Origin: Microscillaceae bacterium
Lineage (GTDB): Bacteria; Bacteroidota; Bacteroidia; Cytophagales; Microscillaceae
Direction: 5' to 3'
Length of the DNA stretch: 36,526 bases
Assembly (NCBI GenBank): GCA_011390205.1
Contig: JAABSX010000042.1
Span: 1 to 36,526 of the forward strand
The translations under genes were made by a program, and so were the position numbers. This document shows, piece after piece, positions 185-14,493 of the stretch (positions are counted from its first letter, which is position 1; every line of letters starts with the position of its first letter). Below the pieces are notes generated by a model that was not told the origin of the DNA, ran no database searches, and saw only the letters and a list, made by a program, of their open reading frames with translations.

Positions 185-1218
185 TCAGTAGATGAAGCCC
201 AAATCTAAATACAGATTCTTGTTTTTCTGTTGTAGTGCCTGTGTATGTTTTTTTGGGTACTTTATGATACGCGATTTTAGTCCTTCCTCAATAGATAAAA
301 CATAGGCCATGATGGTAACTGACATCAATAATCTGCACCAACTTTCATGCTTTAAGTTAATCTCCTCGAGTTGAAAACCGTTACTTTTGAGGTGTGTTTG
401 AAACAATGCTCTATTTTCCACCTTATTAAGTAAATTTTTGCCACCTCTTTGGCTGGAATATCTAAGTTGGTAAGCAAATAAATTAAGGGTACTTTGGGGT
501 CATTCTTCGGGTTTTTACAGACCACAAAATAGAAGGTTATGCCCTCTAATTGAAAGGCTTTCTTGACCGTTTTACCTTTTACTTTACTGCGTTCTACTTT
601 CTTGATAAGACTTACCACCTGCTTGGTCAATAGCTGCTTGATAATGCGTATGCTTGAGGCGAGTGACGAAGTTTAGAACATTGGTTATCAATAACTTAAA
701 CCATTATTTACCTTCGTATTCTCTGTCCGCTATTAGGATTTTCCCTGCTAAATTAAAATATTTCGTAGCCTTCTTCATTAACTTTATTCGTTCCTTGGTA
801 TGACTAACACCCAGCTTATGTAAGTTGAGCCAGTAAATAGGAATAGCTACTCCTTTGTGAACTAAGGCTAAAGTTAGGTAGTGGTAGCTTTTGTTGCCGC
901 ATTTCCAACTTGTACCATCAAGTAATATGTAGTCCTCAGAAATGTCAATGAGTTGAAAAACAAAGCCCAAAATATCTAACTAAAACGGCTCAATGAATAG
1001 AACTCAAAGATGCCTAGTAAATGCTTGTAATGTGAATTAGAATCAACCTCTGATTTGTCTAATAACATTCCTGCTACACCCTTAAGTTGATGTAAGTTAA
1101 GCGTTTCTTTTATGAGAATGCAATTACAAAGCAAGAAGGTATTTTGAAGACAAGAATTAGAATGGTTCGGGAAATATCTACTAAATTTGTCTGAAAAAGA
1201 TAAAAGAGATAGTGACAT
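185..1218 (-). pseudogene. Degenerate IS4-family transposase
   Basis: Four minus-strand reading segments in two alternating frames together spell one IS4-type DDE transposase, so the gene is broken. The N-terminal part lies at 976-1218. The catalytic core follows, with the first Asp in LLDGTSWKCGNKSYHY (codon about 917-919) and the second in IADREYEGK (about 725-727). The C-terminal Y-2-R-3-E signature is in YLIRWKIEHCFK, with its Glu at about 409-411. Damage: a stop and frame change near 976-982, an in-frame TAA at 704-706 with recognisable coding on both sides, a frameshift between about 600 and 640, and another near 395-410 where HCFKHTSK and THLKSNGFQLEE overlap in different frames. No terminal inverted repeats or target duplication could be identified. 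It is a fossil insertion sequence, not expected to be active. Confidence 0.85.
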
Positions 1219-1320
1219 ATTTTTACAAGTTTCGTTGCTTCAAAAATAATGATTTACTATCTCTTTTTCAATTTTGTATAGTAGTATGCCATAAAACATA
1301 AAATTAATGACAAGAATCAT

Positions 1321-1350
1321 TTTGATTTAAAGAAAAATGTATTTACTTTG
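1321..1350 (+). promoter_or_regulatory. Candidate Bacteroidota promoter
   Basis: TTTG at 1321-1324 is followed after 18 bases by TTACTTTG at 1343-1350 and then C. This resembles the -33 TTTG / -7 TAnnTTTG layout known for Bacteroidota, with one mismatch in the -7 box. It lies about 57 bases before the Cys-rich gene. The same TTACTTTGC string recurs before the SDR reductase gene. Confidence 0.45.
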
Positions 1351-1407
1351 CGTATCTATTTATATTTATTCTAAATAAGAATAAGTTACTTTAATCTTAA
1401 AAATCAG

Positions 1408-1593
1408 ATGAAGTCTTTTAACCAATTCTCTCCTAAGCCTGATGCAGCAAGTATCTGCTTCAATACTGCAAACATCATGCAGTTTCCTACATCGGGCTAT
1501 GCCCAAGAGTACCCTTGCGTATTCAAGAAAAGATGCTGCGAAAAATTTCGTAAAAAGGGAAAAAAGCGTTGTAAAAGCTGCCCAGATAAATAG
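1408..1593 (+). CDS. Small Cys-rich basic protein
   Basis: A 61-residue protein with six cysteines (C17, C37, C43, C44, C55, C58) and a strongly basic C-terminal half, FKKRCCEKFRKKGKKRCKSC. The pattern CC-x10-C-x2-C suggests metal binding or a compact disulfide or zinc fold. From memory, short Bacteroidota proteins with a similar CCEK...GK..CK.CP tail exist, but I know no assigned function. It has its own candidate promoter upstream and ends about 80 bases before the FAD enzyme gene. It has no signal peptide or membrane segment. The coding call rests on the cysteine pattern, the basic composition and the promoter. Confidence 0.65.
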   Translation: MKSFNQFSPKPDAASICFNTANIMQFPTSGYAQEYPCVFKKRCCEKFRKKGKKRCKSCPDK

Positions 1594-1616
1594 GAAAAAA
1601 TGCGCATAAATTTAGT

Positions 1617-1624
1617 TATCTTTG
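1617..1624 (+). promoter_or_regulatory. Candidate -7 box TATCTTTG
   Basis: TATCTTTG is an exact match to TAnnTTTG, 51 bases before the ATG of the FAD enzyme gene. No convincing -33 TTTG is visible upstream. Confidence 0.4.
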
Positions 1625-1675
1625 GTGCTGGAGAGCCCTTAAGGCTTGTGTTTTAATTCTAAATCCGTACTAAAA

Positions 1676-2917
1676 ATGACAGATGTACTCATCATAGGTG
1701 CTGGTGTGGCTGGGCTCAGTGCTGCAAATACATTCCACCAAAAAAATATTTCTTATAAACTCTTAGAAGCAGACACTAGAGTGGGCGGGCGTATCAAGAC
1801 TGACCTTGTGGGAGGCTACCGCCTTGATAGGGGCTTTCAGGTCTTGCTGACTGCTTATCCTGAGACATCACAGCAGCTAGATTATGCGCAACTAAATCTA
1901 AAATCATTTTATCCTGGAGCGGTGATTCTTCAGGAAAAAGGCAAAACAGAGATAGGCGATCCACTTCGCAGACCAGCTTCACTTTTCAAAACGGTATTTT
2001 CAAGTGTAGGAAATCTACAAGACAAATTCAACATTCTGCGTCTTCGTTTGCAGCTTCAGCAAGCAAGCCTAGAAGAGATTTTTGGGCGAGCAGAAATCAG
2101 CACTGCTGAGGCTTTGCAAGCCTATGGATTTAGCAAGCAGATGATTGAGAAGTTTTTTAAACCCTTTATGGGAGGGATTTTTTTGGAGAATAATCTAAGC
2201 ACTTCTCGTAGAATGTTTGATTTTGTGTTCAAGATGTTTTCAAGTGGAGATACTGCCGTGCCTGCCCTCGGGATGGAAGAAATCCCGAAGCAACTTGCCC
2301 AAAAGCTTCATTCGGAAGATATTCACTTAGAAAAAGAAGTGCAATTTATTGAGAAAGGGAGTGTACTCTGCAAGGGAGGTGCAGCATACAAAGCCAAAAG
2401 AATTCTAATCGCTACTGAAGCCTCAGGGCTTGTGCAGCAATACGCTCCAAATACCAAAACTGCTGCTCAATCGGTTACTTGTGTGTATTTTTATGCAGAT
2501 AAAGCCCCTATCGATAGGCCTATCTTAATATTGGATGCTCGCTCTGCCAGTCTTGTCAATAATGTAGCTGTGATGAGCCATGTTTCTTCAGAATATGCCC
2601 CAAAAGACAAAGTGCTGATTTCGGTATCTATCAACGGATTACCAACACTTGATTATGAGGCACTTAGCACACAGATTAAAGCCAGTCTTTTCACGTCATT
2701 GGGAGATACCGTGCTAGGCTGGAGGCTACTCAAGGTCTATCCCATTCAATATGCACTCCCTCAGCAAAGCAACGTTACAGGAAAAATCAATGTATCTCAA
2801 ATCAAACTACGAGAAGACTTATACCAAACAGGTGATTTTCTGCTCAATGGCTCTATCCATGCCGCTATGCAAGCAGGGCGAGAGAGTGCAGAAATCATCG
2901 CAGAGAGTTTAAAATAG
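1676..2917 (+). CDS. FAD-dependent amine oxidase-like oxidoreductase
   Basis: A 413-residue flavoprotein of the amine oxidase / protoporphyrinogen oxidase / phytoene desaturase superfamily. The N-terminal Rossmann dinucleotide motif is DVLIIGAGVAGLSAAN, followed by the acidic residue binding the ribose (LLEAD) and the family motif VGGRIKTD. A second conserved Gly-rich, substrate-side segment is near FFKPFMGGIFLENNLSTS. The C-terminal FAD-contact segment is YQTGDFLLNGSIHAAMQAGRESAE. I start the protein at the ATG at 1676, because Rossmann proteins begin a few residues before the beta strand; an upstream in-frame TTG at 1646 is less likely. The substrate cannot be deduced. It converges on the DNA glycosylase gene, with 14 bases between stops. 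Confidence 0.88.
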   Translation: MTDVLIIGAGVAGLSAANTFHQKNISYKLLEADTRVGGRIKTDLVGGYRLDRGFQVLLTAYPETSQQLDYAQLNLKSFYPGAVILQEKGKTEIGDPLRRPASLFKTVFSSVGNLQDKFNILRLRLQLQQASLEEIFGRAEISTAEALQAYGFSKQMIEKFFKPFMGGIFLENNLSTSRRMFDFVFKMFSSGDTAVPALGMEEIPKQLAQKLHSEDIHLEKEVQFIEKGSVLCKGGAAYKAKRILIATEASGLVQQYAPNTKTAAQSVTCVYFYADKAPIDRPILILDARSASLVNNVAVMSHVSSEYAPKDKVLISVSINGLPTLDYEALSTQIKASLFTSLGDTVLGWRLLKVYPIQYALPQQSNVTGKINVSQIKLREDLYQTGDFLLNGSIHAAMQAGRESAEIIAESLK

Positions 2918-2931
2918 CAGACAATCACTGC

Positions 2932-3549
2932 TTACTGTTGTAGGGCAGGCTTGTCTTTCCATTTCCAGAGATATTTACAAGCTATAGTGCGGTAGGGACT
3001 CCACACACTGGCTATCTGCCGCATATGTAGTAGCAGTGTTTTTTTGTGCGTAGTATCTAAGCCATAGAGTCTGCTCATGGCTTGCTGTATGCCTAGGTCA
3101 TCTTCAGGAAAAACATCAAGCCGCCCTAAACCTGACATCAGCAGCATCTCTACAGTCCATTTGCCCACACCTTTGATTTGTGTGAGATAAGTGATGATTT
3201 CGGCATCTGTCATAGGTGCCAAGAGTGCGTAGCTTAGTCCTTTCTCTAGAGTAAATCGGGCTATGTTCTGAATATATCCCGCTTTTTGCTGTGATAGCCC
3301 CACCTCTTTGAGTGTATCAATGGATGTTTGGCAGATTTTTTCGGCTTGGGGCTCGCCTCCGAAGCGAGCTTCAAAACGCAGGTAAATCGTCTGTGCAGCC
3401 TTTGTGGACAGTTGTTGCCCTACAATCGCCCTGAGCAAAGATGAATAAGTATCAGGATTTGTGTTTTTCTCTATGCTGATGGCTTCCGTATTTTCTATCA
3501 CTGTCTTTAGCCTTGTATCTTGGCTCAAATGTCTGATGATTTCTTGCAT
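2932..3549 (-). CDS. DNA-3-methyladenine glycosylase II family (AlkA-like, HhH-GPD)
   Basis: A 205-residue helix-hairpin-helix GPD glycosylase that excises alkylated bases in base-excision repair. It has a helical core with LLRAIVGQQLSTKAAQTI (residues 38-55), the HhH motif QIKGVGKWTVEMLLM (124-138), and the catalytic Asp region GRLDVFPEDDLGIQQAM (142-158), in which D151 aligns with AlkA Asp238. It lacks the N-terminal domain of E. coli AlkA, as is common for the short bacterial type, and lacks an FeS Cys cluster, which argues against EndoIII or MutY. ATG start at 3549. Confidence 0.92.
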   Translation of the reverse strand: MQEIIRHLSQDTRLKTVIENTEAISIEKNTNPDTYSSLLRAIVGQQLSTKAAQTIYLRFEARFGGEPQAEKICQTSIDTLKEVGLSQQKAGYIQNIARFTLEKGLSYALLAPMTDAEIITYLTQIKGVGKWTVEMLLMSGLGRLDVFPEDDLGIQQAMSRLYGLDTTHKKTLLLHMRQIASVWSPYRTIACKYLWKWKDKPALQQ

Positions 3550-6619: not shown

Positions 6620-7285
6620 ATGATGGAATTACAGACTATCACACCTGCCAATAAAGTATATCAAGATTGCTCTGATGATGTGCTGCTTCGTGTAGAAACC
6701 AATGACATAGAAGTGGAAGCAGCACAAGTCAAAGAAAAATCTAAACAAAAAAAGAAAGCGAAAAAGAAAAAAGATGCCAACGAAAAAGCCATCCAATCCT
6801 TTTTTAGGGTCTTAGCAGCCAAACAAGTAGAGCAAATCTCACAAGTAGATTACAAAGCCAATATCTTGATTACACTGTGTTCTTTGCTTGCCTCTGTGGT
6901 GGGTAGTTTGTTTTTGGCACATTATGAGATTTACCAAGCCTTTGCCCCTTCGGTGCTGGTGCTGACCTTTAGCAGCATTATCAGTGTGTTTTTTTCTATG
7001 CTTGTGGTGGTCTCGCCGAGCTGCAACAGATGCCAAGCTGGTCAAAAAAGAGTCAATGTGATGAATTTTAATCAATTCTCGCAGTTAAGCCTTTCAGATT
7101 ACAAAAAAGAAGTAATGCGTACCCTCAGAAGTGAAGAAGAAATCTACGAAAGCATCAGTGAAGATTTTTACAAAACAGGCAAAATCTTAAAGCAAAAATT
7201 TATCTACCTTAACTGGGGCTACAGGATATTTTTGTCAGGTATTTTTACAGCTTTTGTGCTGGGCTTCGGTGTCAAAATTTGGTAG
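6620..7285 (+). CDS. DUF5706 / Pycsar effector-type (PycTM-like) membrane protein
   Basis: A 221-residue protein. The N-terminal 55 residues are charged, with a Lys-rich run (39-51). Then comes the DUF5706 signature: a helix with QVEQISQVDYKANILIT (69-85, invariant-type D-x-KAN), two membrane segments (about 82-101 and 109-132), a cytoplasmic stretch NFNQFSQLSLSDYKKEVM (149-166) and EEIYESISEDFYKTGKIL, and a last membrane segment (202-219). The family includes the effector of Pycsar anti-phage systems, which senses a cyclic nucleotide and damages the membrane. No nucleotide cyclase gene lies nearby. The gene is 22 bases before the phosphoesterase/barrel fusion and probably cotranscribed. A defence role is inference; a housekeeping membrane role is possible. 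Confidence 0.78.
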   Translation: MMELQTITPANKVYQDCSDDVLLRVETNDIEVEAAQVKEKSKQKKKAKKKKDANEKAIQSFFRVLAAKQVEQISQVDYKANILITLCSLLASVVGSLFLAHYEIYQAFAPSVLVLTFSSIISVFFSMLVVVSPSCNRCQAGQKRVNVMNFNQFSQLSLSDYKKEVMRTLRSEEEIYESISEDFYKTGKILKQKFIYLNWGYRIFLSGIFTAFVLGFGVKIW

Positions 7286-7307: not shown

Positions 7308-10300
7308 ATGAGAATAAATTACTTTTACCTCTTGCTTTTTTTTTTACTGGGCTGTGCAGCTCACAAAAAACCTTTTTATAACAAAGACTTTAAAAACTGG
7401 GAAAGTTATACTCCAAAAGAACAACAGACTCTCATACACAGTACTTTCTTGATTGGAGATGCTGGTGAGCCAAGTATAGAGATACAAGAACCTGCACTGA
7501 AGCTTTTACAACAGCAACTCTATGAAGCTGCTGAGCAAAGCAGCTTGGTCTTTTTGGGAGATAACATCTATCAGCATGGCCTGCCAGACTCTAGCCTGAC
7601 CGAAGAAAGAAAAGCAGCAGAAACCAAAATCATAGCGCAACTCAAAATCTTAAAAGAATATAAAGGACGTGTGTTCTTTATTCCAGGCAACCACGACTGG
7701 GCCAAAAGCAAACCCGAAGGAAGACAAAATATCCTGAACCAAGAGCAGTTCATAGAAAATTACCTCAATAGAAGTGAAAATGTATTTGTGCCTGATGCTG
7801 CCTGCCCCACTCCCCAAGAAATTATCTTGAATGATGACCTCGTACTGATTTGTATAGACACCCAATGGTGGCTGCACCCTCACCACCAAGCCCAAGAAAC
7901 TGCAGACTGCGATGCCAAGACGGAGGCTGATTTTATCTTTCAGCTCAATGATTTGTTGCAAAAACACAAATACAAAAAAATAATCGTGGCAGGGCATCAT
8001 CCTTTATACAGCAATGGAGTCCACGGTGGGCATTTTCCACTTATCGAGCATTTATTCCCTTTCGAAAGAAAAAAAATCTATGTGCCAATGCCCCTCTTGG
8101 GCTCTATCTATGTGGGCTACCGCAAGTTTATCGGAGATAGACAAGATATCCCAAACGAACGCTACCAAAAACTCAAAAATGTACTCACTACCATCTTTAA
8201 AAAACACCCCAACTTGGTGTATGTCTGTGGGCATGACCATAGCCTACAATATCACCAAAAAGACAGCATACATTATCTCATCAGTGGTGCAGGCTCTAAG
8301 GAGAGCCACGTCGCAAGAAAACAAAAAGCCGCTTTTGCATACTCTAAAAAGGGCTTTGCAAAACTTAATTTTTATGAGAACGGAGAAACTTGGGTAGAGT
8401 TCTGGACCCCAGAAGGAGATGGTAGCAGCGGCAAAATAGTATTTAAGTATTTGCTTTTCACCCAAAAAAACAAAACACTTTCCACAGACAAAACCCAACT
8501 TGAATACACGGGCAAAACCATCTCAAAAGCACTCGGAAACTATCAGGCAGAAGGAATCAAAGAATTTCTCTGGGGGAAAAACTACCGCAAAGAATGGACT
8601 ACACCCGTAGATTTTCCTTATTTTGACATAGATACAGAGAAAGGAGGCTTACAAATCCTCAAAAGAGGAGGAGGGCAAGCTACCAACTCCCTGAGGCTCG
8701 AAGCCAAAGATGGCAGACAGTATGTGCTACGCTCCGTAGATAAACAGGGCGACAAAGCTCTGAGCGAAGATTTTAAAGGGACATTCGTGTCCGAAATCGT
8801 TCAAGACCAGACTTCCTCTGCTTACCCTTATGGGGCTTTGGTAGTGCCTACACTTGCCGAAGCCGTAGGCATTTATCACACCAACCCTAAGTATGTCTAT
8901 CTGCCCAAAGATGACAGGCTCGGAGGCTACAAAGAAGGCTTTGGAGATGCTGTCTATCTTTTTGAAGAAAGACCTGATGATGGCTTGTGGAAAGAAGCAG
9001 ATTTTTTTGGAAATCCTGACCAAGTCATTAATACGAGCAAGGTCATCAAAAGGCTCACCAAAGACAATGATAACCTCGTAAAGCAAAAGTTTGTGCTCAG
9101 AAACCGCCTCTTTGATATATTGATAGGTGACTGGGACAGGCACGATGACCAGTGGTCTTGGGTGGCCTCCGAGAATAAAAAAGAAAATTTGACCTTTTAT
9201 ACACCTATCCCCAGAGACAGAGACCAAGTCTTTTTTGATTCTGATGGGTTTCTCACAGGTCTAGGCTCACAAAAATGGGCACTGCCCAAGTTTCAAGGAT
9301 TTAAGGCAAAAATCAAAAATGTAGAAGGGCTTAATTTTAACAATCGCCATTTTGATAGGTATTTTTTAACAGAGCCTTCTCTCGAAGACTGGCTTGCCGT
9401 GGCTGATACTCTTCAGAAGCATATCACAGATGAAGTCATCACACAAGCATTGGCTGTAGTTCCGCCAGAAGTCGCAAAATACTCAATAGAAGACATCAAA
9501 GCAAAACTCATCCAGAGAAGAAATGACCTAAAAACCTATGCACGGGCATATTACTTATTTTTATCAAAAAACGTGAATGTGCTAGGCTCAGACAAGCACG
9601 AAAGGTTTGAAATAGAAAGACTTAATGAGGAGGAAACTAGAGTATCTGTCTATAAAATCAAGAAAAATAACGCCAAACCTCAGCACCTGATTTACCAAAG
9701 AATCTTTAAAAAAAGCGAAACAAAAGAAATTAGATTGTATGGCTTAGAAGGGGAAGATGAATTTATACTCACAGGAGAAGTCAAAAAAGGAATCAAAGTC
9801 AGAATCATAGGAGGCAAAGACCCTGACCAAATCACGGACAACTCTTGGGTTAAAAAAGGAGGAAAAAAGACAATCGTCTATGATTTACTAAAAAATACAG
9901 AACTCAAAGAAGGCAAAGAAACCAAAAACCGACTTTCTATACATCGCTATATCAACGACTATCACAGAGATGAATTTAAGTACAATTACTTCGGCCCTAG
10001 TTTTTTTGGAGGGTTTAATCCTGATGATGGCGTGTTTTTGGGAGGAGGGGTCAATGTCAGAAGGCAAGGCTTTCGCAAATCACCTTTTGCCAGCAAACAA
10101 ATCATCAAAGGCAATTATGCCCTCGCTACCCAGTCTTTTAATTTTGTGTATTTAGGTGAATTTACAGACATATGGGGAAAACTAGACTTGGTGCTAGATG
10201 CTGAGGTCAGAAGCCCCAATTATGTCCAAAACTTTTTTGGACTAGGCAACGAAACCAAAAACCTGCGAAGAGAAAAAGGGGTAAACTATCACCGTGTTCG

Positions 10301-11042
10301 CTATACACAGTGGTATTTTGAGCCACAGCTCCGCCTTGACTCAGAAGATAAAAAACATAGACTCAATCTAGGAGCATACTTTCAAAGTATTGAAGTAGAG
10401 GAAAACCCCAATAGGTTTATTACCAATTTTGATGAAAACGGACTTAACCCCGAAAATACAATTGAAGACCATAAATATTTCCTTGGCTTGCAAGCACGCT
10501 ATCAGTATGACTCCAGAGACAATGCCCTTCAGCCCCGAAATGGGGTGATTCTTAAACTCAAAGCCGCCCGTGTCTCAGGTCTGAATGATGAAGACTTAGA
10601 AGAAATTAATTACACAAAACTCTCAGGTGATTTTTCTTTTTATAAAAAGCTGTTTTCAAATTGGGTATTTGCCAACCGCATAGGGGCAGCAGCTAACTGG
10701 GGAAATTATCAGTTTTATCAGGCCAATACATTGGGTGCCAATGAAAACTTGCGTGGATACCGAAATTATCGTTTTTCGGGAGATAAAATTTTTTATAACA
10801 ACACTGACCTAAGAATCCAAATTGGCAAGATTCAGACATTTTTGTTTAACGGAAGTTTTGGAATGATTGCCTCTCATGACATCGGGCGGGTGTGGTTCAG
10901 GGGTGAAGATTCTCAAAAATGGCACCGCTCTTATGGGGGAGGGCTTTGGCTGAGCCCTGCCAATGCCCTGCTTATTTCTACTACATTTAATCGCTCCGAA
11001 GAAGACAATGTATTCTTTTTAAGGTTTGGATTTTTGTTTTAA
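7308..11042 (+). CDS. Lipoprotein fusion: calcineurin-type phosphoesterase, kinase-like middle domain, Omp85-type barrel
   Basis: A 1244-residue outer-membrane protein with a lipoprotein signal (LLFFLLGC, lipobox Cys about residue 16). Residues about 45-330 form a metallophosphoesterase with all its metal motifs: GDAG (D51), LGDN (D85, N86), GNHD (N128-D130), AGHHP (H230) and GHDH (H309, H311). Residues about 450-660 carry a segment ordered like an atypical kinase: YVLRSVDK (472-479), FVSEIVQDQ (E496), hinge-like VYLFEERP (549-556), GDWDRHDDQW (607-616) and PIPRDRDQVFF (633-643). Residues about 890-1244 are a beta-barrel of the Omp85/surface-antigen type, with the motif NLRGYRNYRFSG (1147-1158) and a terminal Phe. 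Phosphoesterase and barrel are well supported; the kinase-like reading is my inference. POTRA domains are not evident. Substrate unknown. Confidence 0.85.
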   Translation: MRINYFYLLLFFLLGCAAHKKPFYNKDFKNWESYTPKEQQTLIHSTFLIGDAGEPSIEIQEPALKLLQQQLYEAAEQSSLVFLGDNIYQHGLPDSSLTEERKAAETKIIAQLKILKEYKGRVFFIPGNHDWAKSKPEGRQNILNQEQFIENYLNRSENVFVPDAACPTPQEIILNDDLVLICIDTQWWLHPHHQAQETADCDAKTEADFIFQLNDLLQKHKYKKIIVAGHHPLYSNGVHGGHFPLIEHLFPFERKKIYVPMPLLGSIYVGYRKFIGDRQDIPNERYQKLKNVLTTIFKKHPNLVYVCGHDHSLQYHQKDSIHYLISGAGSKESHVARKQKAAFAYSKKGFAKLNFYENGETWVEFWTPEGDGSSGKIVFKYLLFTQKNKTLSTDKTQLEYTGKTISKALGNYQAEGIKEFLWGKNYRKEWTTPVDFPYFDIDTEKGGLQILKRGGGQATNSLRLEAKDGRQYVLRSVDKQGDKALSEDFKGTFVSEIVQDQTSSAYPYGALVVPTLAEAVGIYHTNPKYVYLPKDDRLGGYKEGFGDAVYLFEERPDDGLWKEADFFGNPDQVINTSKVIKRLTKDNDNLVKQKFVLRNRLFDILIGDWDRHDDQWSWVASENKKENLTFYTPIPRDRDQVFFDSDGFLTGLGSQKWALPKFQGFKAKIKNVEGLNFNNRHFDRYFLTEPSLEDWLAVADTLQKHITDEVITQALAVVPPEVAKYSIEDIKAKLIQRRNDLKTYARAYYLFLSKNVNVLGSDKHERFEIERLNEEETRVSVYKIKKNNAKPQHLIYQRIFKKSETKEIRLYGLEGEDEFILTGEVKKGIKVRIIGGKDPDQITDNSWVKKGGKKTIVYDLLKNTELKEGKETKNRLSIHRYINDYHRDEFKYNYFGPSFFGGFNPDDGVFLGGGVNVRRQGFRKSPFASKQIIKGNYALATQSFNFVYLGEFTDIWGKLDLVLDAEVRSPNYVQNFFGLGNETKNLRREKGVNYHRVRYTQWYFEPQLRLDSEDKKHRLNLGAYFQSIEVEENPNRFITNFDENGLNPENTIEDHKYFLGLQARYQYDSRDNALQPRNGVILKLKAARVSGLNDEDLEEINYTKLSGDFSFYKKLFSNWVFANRIGAAANWGNYQFYQANTLGANENLRGYRNYRFSGDKIFYNNTDLRIQIGKIQTFLFNGSFGMIASHDIGRVWFRGEDSQKWHRSYGGGLWLSPANALLISTTFNRSEEDNVFFLRFGFLF

Positions 11043-13431: not shown

Positions 13432-14493
13432 ATGAACAAACGAGAATTTCTAAAACTAAATGCCCTCATTGTGGGCGGAGCGATGCTTAATCCTATCCCA
13501 AGCTTTGCCTTATTTACCCCCCAAAAAAACAATGGTGACTTTCTCTTGCCTGATTTAGATTATGCTTTCAATGCTTTAGAGCCCTTTGTAGATGCCATGA
13601 CGATGGAGATTCACCATGGTAAACACCACGCAGGCTATGTCAGTAAATTAAATGCAGCCATCAAAGGGACTTCTTTTGAAGGCAAGACTATAGAGGGAAT
13701 CTTGGCAAGCATAGGCCCCGAAGATACCGCAGTACGCAACAATGCAGGCGGGCATTACAATCACACACTTTTTTGGAAAGTACTCACTCCTAATAAAAAC
13801 ACAAAACCTTCTGCCAAACTTACAGAGGCGATTAATCAAAGCTTTGGCTCTACAGAATCACTAAAAGAAAGAATGATGGCTGCAGGCAAAACTGTCTTTG
13901 GCAGTGGCTGGGCTTGGCTAGTGCTGGGAGAAGATAGAAAGCTGGCTGTGCTGGCTTCATCCAACCAAGATAACCCAATGATGCTCAAAATCAGTCCACA
14001 AACAGGCAAACCCATCTTCGGCATAGATGTATGGGAGCACGCTTATTATCTCAAATACCAAAATAAACGAGGGGATTATCTAAGCAGTATTTGGGAAATA
14101 ATCAACTGGGAAGAAGTAAGCCTTCGCTATGAAGCAGCCCTGCCCAAACCCAAAAATAAGGAGCTATTCGAAGAATGGGCAGAATTAAATGACTTCCATA
14201 CCACCATGTCCCAGACCTTTCACCCTGCCGAAGGAGGAGATTTGGCACCTATCAAAGCTCGCTCAAAAGAACTTGCCCAAAAAGCAGCTACTTTGGCAAA
14301 ATCAAGCATTCCTGCAGCGTTTAGTACACCTCAAATAATGGAGGCTGTCCAACAGTTGGAAAGAGATAGCAAAATACTGAGCAGACTTACCAGAAAGAGA
14401 AAAACGACAGATGCCCAGATTACACAGTCTTTGACTGCCTTGCACGGGGTCTTTCACAAGATTGTGGGTTTGTGTAGAGAAGGGATGCATTAG
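13432..14493 (+). CDS. Exported Mn-type superoxide dismutase with C-terminal helical domain
   Basis: A 353-residue protein. The N-terminus NKREFLKLNALIVGG resembles a Tat-type signal with KR instead of RR, cleavage likely after PSFA (26). Residues about 37-240 are an Fe/Mn SOD with ligands H61 (MEIHHGKHH), H111 (GGHYNHTLFW), D199 and H203 (GIDVWEHAYYLKYQNKR); GGH and the SNQDNP segment point to the Mn type. Residues 254-353 are an extra helical domain with conserved-looking metal-type residues: DFHTTMSQTFHPAEGGDL (H256, H264) and LHGVFHKIVGLC (H338, H342, C348). SOD normally ends near residue 240 of this numbering, so the last 110 residues are a fusion. It detoxifies superoxide outside the cytoplasm; the role of the extra domain is unknown. 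Confidence 0.9.
   Translation: MNKREFLKLNALIVGGAMLNPIPSFALFTPQKNNGDFLLPDLDYAFNALEPFVDAMTMEIHHGKHHAGYVSKLNAAIKGTSFEGKTIEGILASIGPEDTAVRNNAGGHYNHTLFWKVLTPNKNTKPSAKLTEAINQSFGSTESLKERMMAAGKTVFGSGWAWLVLGEDRKLAVLASSNQDNPMMLKISPQTGKPIFGIDVWEHAYYLKYQNKRGDYLSSIWEIINWEEVSLRYEAALPKPKNKELFEEWAELNDFHTTMSQTFHPAEGGDLAPIKARSKELAQKAATLAKSSIPAAFSTPQIMEAVQQLERDSKILSRLTRKRKTTDAQITQSLTALHGVFHKIVGLCREGMH

Follow-up and report, generated by a model that had tools for sequence, protein, structure and literature searches.

A purple-acid-phosphatase-like domain, an atypical kinase fold and an Omp85 barrel predicted in one exported protein of Bacteroidota

Our analysis of a 36,526-nucleotide stretch of DNA from a Microscillaceae bacterium (assembly GCA_011390205.1, contig JAABSX010000042.1, positions 1 to 36,526; hereafter the window) indicates that the protein encoded at positions 7308-11042 is almost certainly exported and joins a purple-acid-phosphatase-like domain and an atypical-kinase-fold domain to an Omp85 barrel. 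Direct reading of the sequence gives an intact open reading frame (ORF) of 1244 residues on the forward (+) strand, to which the coordinates of all its features refer, with the mnmG/gidA gene downstream on the opposite strand. The order of domains is a signal sequence with a lipobox, the purple-acid-phosphatase-like domain, the kinase fold, a beta-rich linker and a 16-strand BamA/TamA-like barrel; an AlphaFold model of residues 45-1244 from an alignment of 60 sequences has a predicted local distance difference test score (pLDDT) of 88.4 and a predicted template modelling score (pTM) of 0.83. We tentatively propose that the protein is a periplasm-facing, barrel-tethered phosphotransfer/phosphatase enzyme that acts on a phospho-substrate of the outer membrane and is partnered with a PycTM protein.

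The middle domain (residues 402-753; 8511..9566), in which a first-pass annotation had read kinase-like motifs, is predicted to adopt a two-lobed kinase fold. Residues 396-775 were modelled from the same kind of 60-sequence alignment with a pLDDT of 90.8 and a pTM of 0.91, and all structural neighbours among the matches listed in two comparisons with the PDB are kinases. Foldseek ranked CtkA (1.1e-5), PI4KIIalpha (9.6e-5) and CotH (1e-4) highest by family, ahead of HipA (about 1e-3), with modest TM-scores (about 0.2-0.5) and identities of about 7-15% to the kinase structures, while VIA-align placed PI4KII-beta highest (Z 14.8, root-mean-square deviation 4.1 over 247 residues), followed by CotH (14.5) and CtkA (13.2) and, lower, by VPS34 (11.5) and HipA (11.2), with VPS34 and mTOR within Z 10-12. 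The kinase-like character claimed for this region therefore stands, and the proposed comparison with HipA, CotH and PI3K-type folds recovered PI4KII, CotH, CtkA, HipA and VPS34; FAM20 is not among the structural matches listed for the domain, which does not exclude a likeness to it.

Membership in a named kinase family is another matter. The proposed profile search with the middle region aligned the catalytic loop of CtkA as the best PDB sequence match, at an E-value of 0.043 that is not significant alone, followed by HDAC6 at E 0.2, which we take as noise; neither Pfam nor NCBIfam gave anything credible for the domain, and the window member has no Pfam match there. None of 60 members matched CotH (PF08757) at E 10, none matched the PI3/PI4 kinases (PF00454) despite the similar fold, and of the HipA families PF07804 and PF20613 only the latter found a member (1 of 60, at E 0.097). 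Profile-profile comparisons with hhalign, made against sets of 12 CotH, 8 HipA_C and 12 HipA_2 sequences from related genomes, gave non-significant probabilities of 3.4, 0.2 and 5.8, respectively. A search of a phage collection returned no match, and a search of BFVD returned kinase-like phage and giant-virus models that added nothing. Altogether, the model gives good support to a kinase fold, and none of these searches supports placing the domain in a named kinase family.

The putative active site of this fold is strongly conserved. Relatives are encoded in 519 stretches detected by a genome scan, of which the best 80 were kept, and across 81 aligned members R475, D608, D610, H612, Q615, D637 and D639, as well as E553 and W616, are present in every sequence. 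Because WDRHDDQW had served as one of the search seeds, we recounted on 54 genes found with a profile, excluding the window gene and fragments fetched twice; the exact seed occurs in just six of them. In this set, R475 is kept in 53 genes (with one gap), D608 in 53, D610 in 48, H612 in 49, Q615 in 51, W616 in 53, D637 in 53 and D639 in 52, and the seven residues at 475, 608, 610, 612, 615, 637 and 639 occur together in 47. Thus D608/D610, H612, D637 and D639, the residues on which the first-pass annotation had rested its case, are kept in 81/81 aligned members and in 48-53 of the 54 profile-found genes. They lie in two motifs found in all 81 aligned members, DWDRHDDQW (residues 608-616; 9129..9155), the catalytic-loop motif that aligns with the CtkA loop, and PRDRD (residues 635-639; 9210..9224), the Asp of which is probably equivalent to the Asp of the DFG motif. 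By position, D610 would be the catalytic Asp and D637 the DFG-type metal Asp. R475 (8730..8732) had been placed where the ATP-binding Lys is expected, which fits its location in the model, where it ends strand beta-3, and a weak, non-significant profile alignment with the Lys of HipA_2; nearby, K479 is kept in 52 of 54 genes. A glycine-rich turn, GGG (residues 454-456; 8667..8675), is invariant in the 60-row alignment, its three positions being kept in 51, 52 and 41 of the 54 genes. E496, proposed as the helix-C acid, was rejected, being present in 2 of 81 aligned members; the acidic residue conserved in that helix is D500 (53 of 54 genes). With 41 of 355 columns invariant across the 81 sequences, compared with 7/336 in the phosphatase domain, 8/124 in the linker and 6/361 in the barrel, the kinase-fold domain ranks as the most constrained part of the alignment.

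Several known kinases resemble the middle domain and differ from it. The type II phosphatidylinositol 4-kinases are closest by Z, at 10% identity, and the present family has Arg and Gln at the positions of their usual Lys and Asn. CotH spore-coat kinases share a like fold and differ in the sequence comparisons above, and CtkA and HipA-like kinases differ in that the protein described here is exported, fused to a barrel and has Arg for Lys.

The N-terminal domain (residues 45-389; 7440..8474) belongs to the purple acid phosphatases and metallophosphoesterases by both fold and metal ligands. It matches PF00149 above the cut-off (1.4e-8), and in VIA-align comparisons its model superimposes on pig purple acid phosphatase (7ov2; Z 27.2, 262 residues, 23% identity) and Plasmodium GAP50 (Z 26). 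The six ligands tested (D51, D85, N128, H230, H309 and H311) are all intact in 71 of the 81 aligned members, in keeping with the complete metal site read earlier in the window protein, and at least three of the six are gone in the other ten. Since the ligands are lost in these ten members and the whole domain is absent from kinase-linker-barrel proteins (below), we regard the phosphatase domain as an optional part of the family, judging from the sequences. Purple acid phosphatases such as TRAP5 and uteroferrin are its closest known counterparts, with the difference that here the domain is fused to a kinase fold and a barrel.

The C-terminal part is predicted to be a 16-strand Omp85 barrel (residues 891-1244; 9978..11039), as counted in the model, the nearest structures being BamA (8xnb, Z 25.0), mitochondrial SAM (7btw, 25.0) and TamA (8us2, 24.5). 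Its RGY motif (residues 1149-1151; 10752..10760), noted at the first reading together with an Omp85-type barrel that the model now upholds, has an R and a G that are invariant in 60 rows. The NCBIfam model Omp85_fam matches at 4.4e-25, yet below its curated cut-off; the window protein itself has no Omp85 Pfam match, and PF01103 is above its cut-off in the relatives L132 and L135. Between the kinase fold and the barrel, a purely beta-stranded linker of about 120 residues (757-880; 9576..9947), delimited by the secondary structure of the model and with its own hidden Markov model match in relatives, occupies the usual position of POTRA domains; the model has no beta-alpha-alpha-beta-beta pattern there. 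At the other end of the protein, the signal sequence (7308..7355) ends in the lipobox FFLLGC with C16 as the lipidated Cys, as previously read. By pattern, lipobox-like N-termini occur in just 13 of 81 members, the window protein included, and the remaining N-termini listed look like ordinary signal peptides; on these sequences the lipobox is lineage-specific, and we rejected it as a family-wide feature.

The family is widespread and occurs in several architectures. The kinase-domain profile matched in 143 of 395 Bacteroidota genomes and in 74 of 171 genera. Twenty fetched regions, most of them selected because their ORFs were of unusual length, so that their counts are not frequencies, contained kinase-linker-barrel proteins without phosphatase (12), kinase-linker genes (3), the kinase alone (2), three separate adjacent genes (2) and, in L150, a frame that covers about half of the phosphatase (1). 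In the two split operons, L135 (1341-5293) and L136 (4051-8094), from two genomes of one genus, kinase-linker, phosphatase and barrel genes stand side by side with 38%, 24-25% and 29-31% identity to the window protein, respectively, and by eye the leaders of the kinase and the phosphatase are lipobox-like and the barrel starts with an ordinary signal. Because these parts are encoded adjacently and with leaders, the split operons are Rosetta-stone evidence, at the level of sequence, for a joint role of the three parts outside the cytoplasm. Barrel-less chains with the kinase domain occur in L137, L138, L139, L140 and L142. In L137 (3436-6775), L138 (3501-6851) and L142 (1629-6648), such genes form pairs or triples in which one copy is altered, carrying D610S/H612R next to an intact copy, an arrangement that by analogy is like that of kinase-pseudokinase pairs. 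Among other copies with changes, an 872-residue protein in L106 has Q615N as the sole change of the seven residues, the exception in L141 is a copy truncated where the retrieved sequence stops, and L148 holds a degenerate paralogue (476-3112) with a partial kinase-profile match that adjoins an intact copy and is one of seven exceptions. Separately, a contig labelled Thalassovita (L010) carries a 46% identical copy next to a propeller gene; Thalassovita is an alphaproteobacterium, and this contig is perhaps mis-binned.

The pairing of a PF00149 domain with an Omp85 barrel has been described before, in the 'Metallo' subfamily of Heinz and Lithgow (2014), in which, in the part of that paper available to us, PF00149 lies N-terminal to the barrel, the domain is read as a metalloprotease and the distribution is given at genus level (PMC4104836). 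These are probably the same proteins as the present family. We reject the metalloprotease reading on the model, which has a purple-acid-phosphatase fold, and add the kinase fold between the two parts, for which we found no mention in our literature searches or in the available portions of the papers; the phosphatase-Omp85 pairing was thus published in 2014 and the kinase-fold domain between would be the new addition. The accessible text of a study of PlpD likewise counts the subfamily with an N-terminal metalloprotease among those that are not well characterised (PMC11116518).

PycTM membrane proteins are known from anti-phage defence. In the window, a gene for a PycTM-domain membrane protein (6620..7285, forward strand; PF18967, 1.4e-16) ends 22 bp upstream of the ORF and is the sole PycTM match in the window genome; its product has no recognised HD domain, in contrast to many relatives. 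When 81 loci, some with short flanks, were tested by tblastn with representative neighbours, an HD-PycTM representative matched in 58 flanks, in 47 of them over at least 300 residues (the window match spans 159 residues, the PycTM part only), a beta-propeller of the SdiA-regulated type was near 47 loci, a class III cyclase-like gene, its representative identified by reading only, was in 18 flanks and PPK1 in 10, and none of the four was found at 11 loci; for a gene present once per genome, with the genome size taken as 4.5 Mb, about 0.2 matches would be expected by chance. As regards a Pycsar system, which pairs a class III cyclase with an adjacent PycTM effector, the flank tested in the window has no match to a cyclase of this class. 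PPK1 lies near L017, L030, L042, L055, L057, L072, L077, L083, L084 and L086, often convergent with HD-PycTM. Across the 395 genomes, PycTM occurs in 145 and the kinase domain in 143, with both in 122, kinase only in 21, PycTM only in 23 and neither in 229 (odds ratio 58; Fisher p 7e-55, without correction for phylogeny). Among the matches listed, with weaker ones left out, 111 genomes have coordinates for both, and the two lie within 5 kb in 80, within 10 kb in 95 and within 20 kb in 101. Among 27 closer relatives of the window genome, all five kinase carriers fall within the seven PycTM carriers. Elsewhere in the window, the Fe/Mn superoxide dismutase encoded at 13432-14493 has a hydrophobic leader at its N-terminus and, at its C-terminus, an extension of about 120 residues that the models of that enzyme do not cover.

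In Omp85 proteins, the N-terminal domains come ahead of the barrel strands and lie in the periplasm. Because the enzyme-like domains described here precede the first barrel strand, and given the precedent of PlpD, we suggest that both hang in the periplasm at the mouth of the barrel. In PlpD, according to the available part of the report, the enzyme domain on the Omp85 barrel is periplasmic and its deletion alters membrane lipids; PlpD and its patatin-like relatives share the N-terminal position of an enzyme domain, and differ in having a phospholipase-like domain and POTRA in place of a phosphatase and a kinase fold (PMC11116518). In our model, the kinase-fold domain would be the conserved working core, in which D637/D639 probably bind a metal-nucleotide or other phosphoryl donor and D610 probably transfers or cleaves a phosphoryl group, and the phosphatase domain, where present, would take phosphate off the same kind of substrate. 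The barrel would hold the enzymes in position and may provide a route to the membrane, and the module would work with an inner-membrane PycTM or HD-PycTM protein. On the modelled fold, we lean towards phosphotransfer by the middle domain. The likeliest substrate would be a phosphorylated component of the outer membrane, such as a lipid or the phosphate of lipid A; a lipid is our first candidate because the nearest fold, PI4KII, is a lipid kinase, yet it is tied with CotH, a protein kinase, and this analogy leaves a lipid substrate a doubtful assignment.

Several observations weigh against this proposal. Similarity of fold does not imply function, and the periplasm is thought to lack ATP, so that the donor is unexplained. 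The position of the ATP-binding Lys is held by Arg in 53 of the 54 profile-found genes (with a gap in the other), and five residues after D610, where a metal-binding Asn is expected, 51 have Gln and two have Asn; seven of the 54 lack at least one of the seven residues, and a 1255-residue copy in L179 carries both D610G and Q615N. As for the partner, PycTM is more than 10 kb away or on a different contig in 16 of the 111 genomes, the two are on different contigs in 8, including both split-operon genomes, and of the five kinase carriers among the closer relatives only the window genome and G072 have PycTM nearby. The window genome has no PF06977 propeller, and its single PPK1 is on another contig. 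The replaced Lys and Asn, the expected absence of ATP and the D610S/H612R copies beside intact ones in L137, L138 and L142 are also what would be seen if phosphotransfer had been lost and the kinase fold bound or sensed a ligand and so controlled the phosphatase and the barrel. Such a pseudokinase scaffold is a possible but less probable explanation, given that D608, D637, D639, W616 and R475 are near-invariant across several architectures and that the kinase site is conserved more strongly than the phosphatase site, which would be unusual for a mere scaffold.

Two other readings shift the emphasis to the neighbours or to the barrel. That the second PPK1, HD-PycTM, the propeller and the present protein form a module that handles polyphosphate or uses it as an envelope donor seems improbable to us: the 10 PPK1-containing flanks far exceed chance expectation but are a minority of the 81, and PPK1 is near-universal (355 of 395 genomes) and may be tied to HD-PycTM and not to the present protein. 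In the class of the window genome, the kinase occurs in 19 of 20 genomes with at least two PPK1 matches compared with 65 of all 98 genomes (Fisher p 0.003, without correction for phylogeny), and among the 27 closer relatives all four genomes with at least two matches carry it, but outside this class many kinase-negative genomes, for example in family f19, also have two PPK1, and the single PPK1 of the window genome, on another contig, tells against this reading too. From the second PPK1 near some copies, polyphosphate as phosphoryl donor is a lead only. It is more improbable still that the protein is an insertase for barrel assembly or a translocation factor whose enzyme domains simply stand in for POTRA. 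The similarity of its barrel to BamA, SAM and TamA (Z 24-25) fits such a role, as does the function proposed for Omp85 subfamilies of unknown role in the available part of PMC4104836, but the linker has no POTRA-like secondary structure, the kinase residues are conserved more strongly than the barrel and the five loci named above encode barrel-less chains with the kinase domain.

Phosphotransfer or phosphate removal at the outer membrane by a barrel-tethered enzyme is therefore the reading that we prefer. It is tempting to speculate further, in what is unlikely to hold as one joint claim, that the family forms a widespread outer-membrane phospho-switch of Bacteroidota, in which a new family of periplasmic kinases would work without cytoplasmic ATP by using another nucleotide, pyrophosphate or polyphosphate as donor, would share the Omp85 barrel with a purple acid phosphatase of opposite action, with an outer-membrane lipid or glycan as target, and would be linked by an HD-PycTM protein to a signal that crosses the envelope.

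The picture of the 'Metallo' subfamily of Omp85 proteins is thereby corrected, in that the domain published as a metalloprotease takes a purple-acid-phosphatase fold in the model, and extended, in that its most conserved part is a kinase fold unrecognised by Pfam and NCBIfam. The export of a kinase fold to the periplasm, where ATP is presumed to be missing, raises a sharp question. Finally, the association with PycTM would point to a further role for PycTM proteins, and their frequent adjacency suggests that the bacterial envelope has a module for phosphate handling that is as yet uncharacterised.

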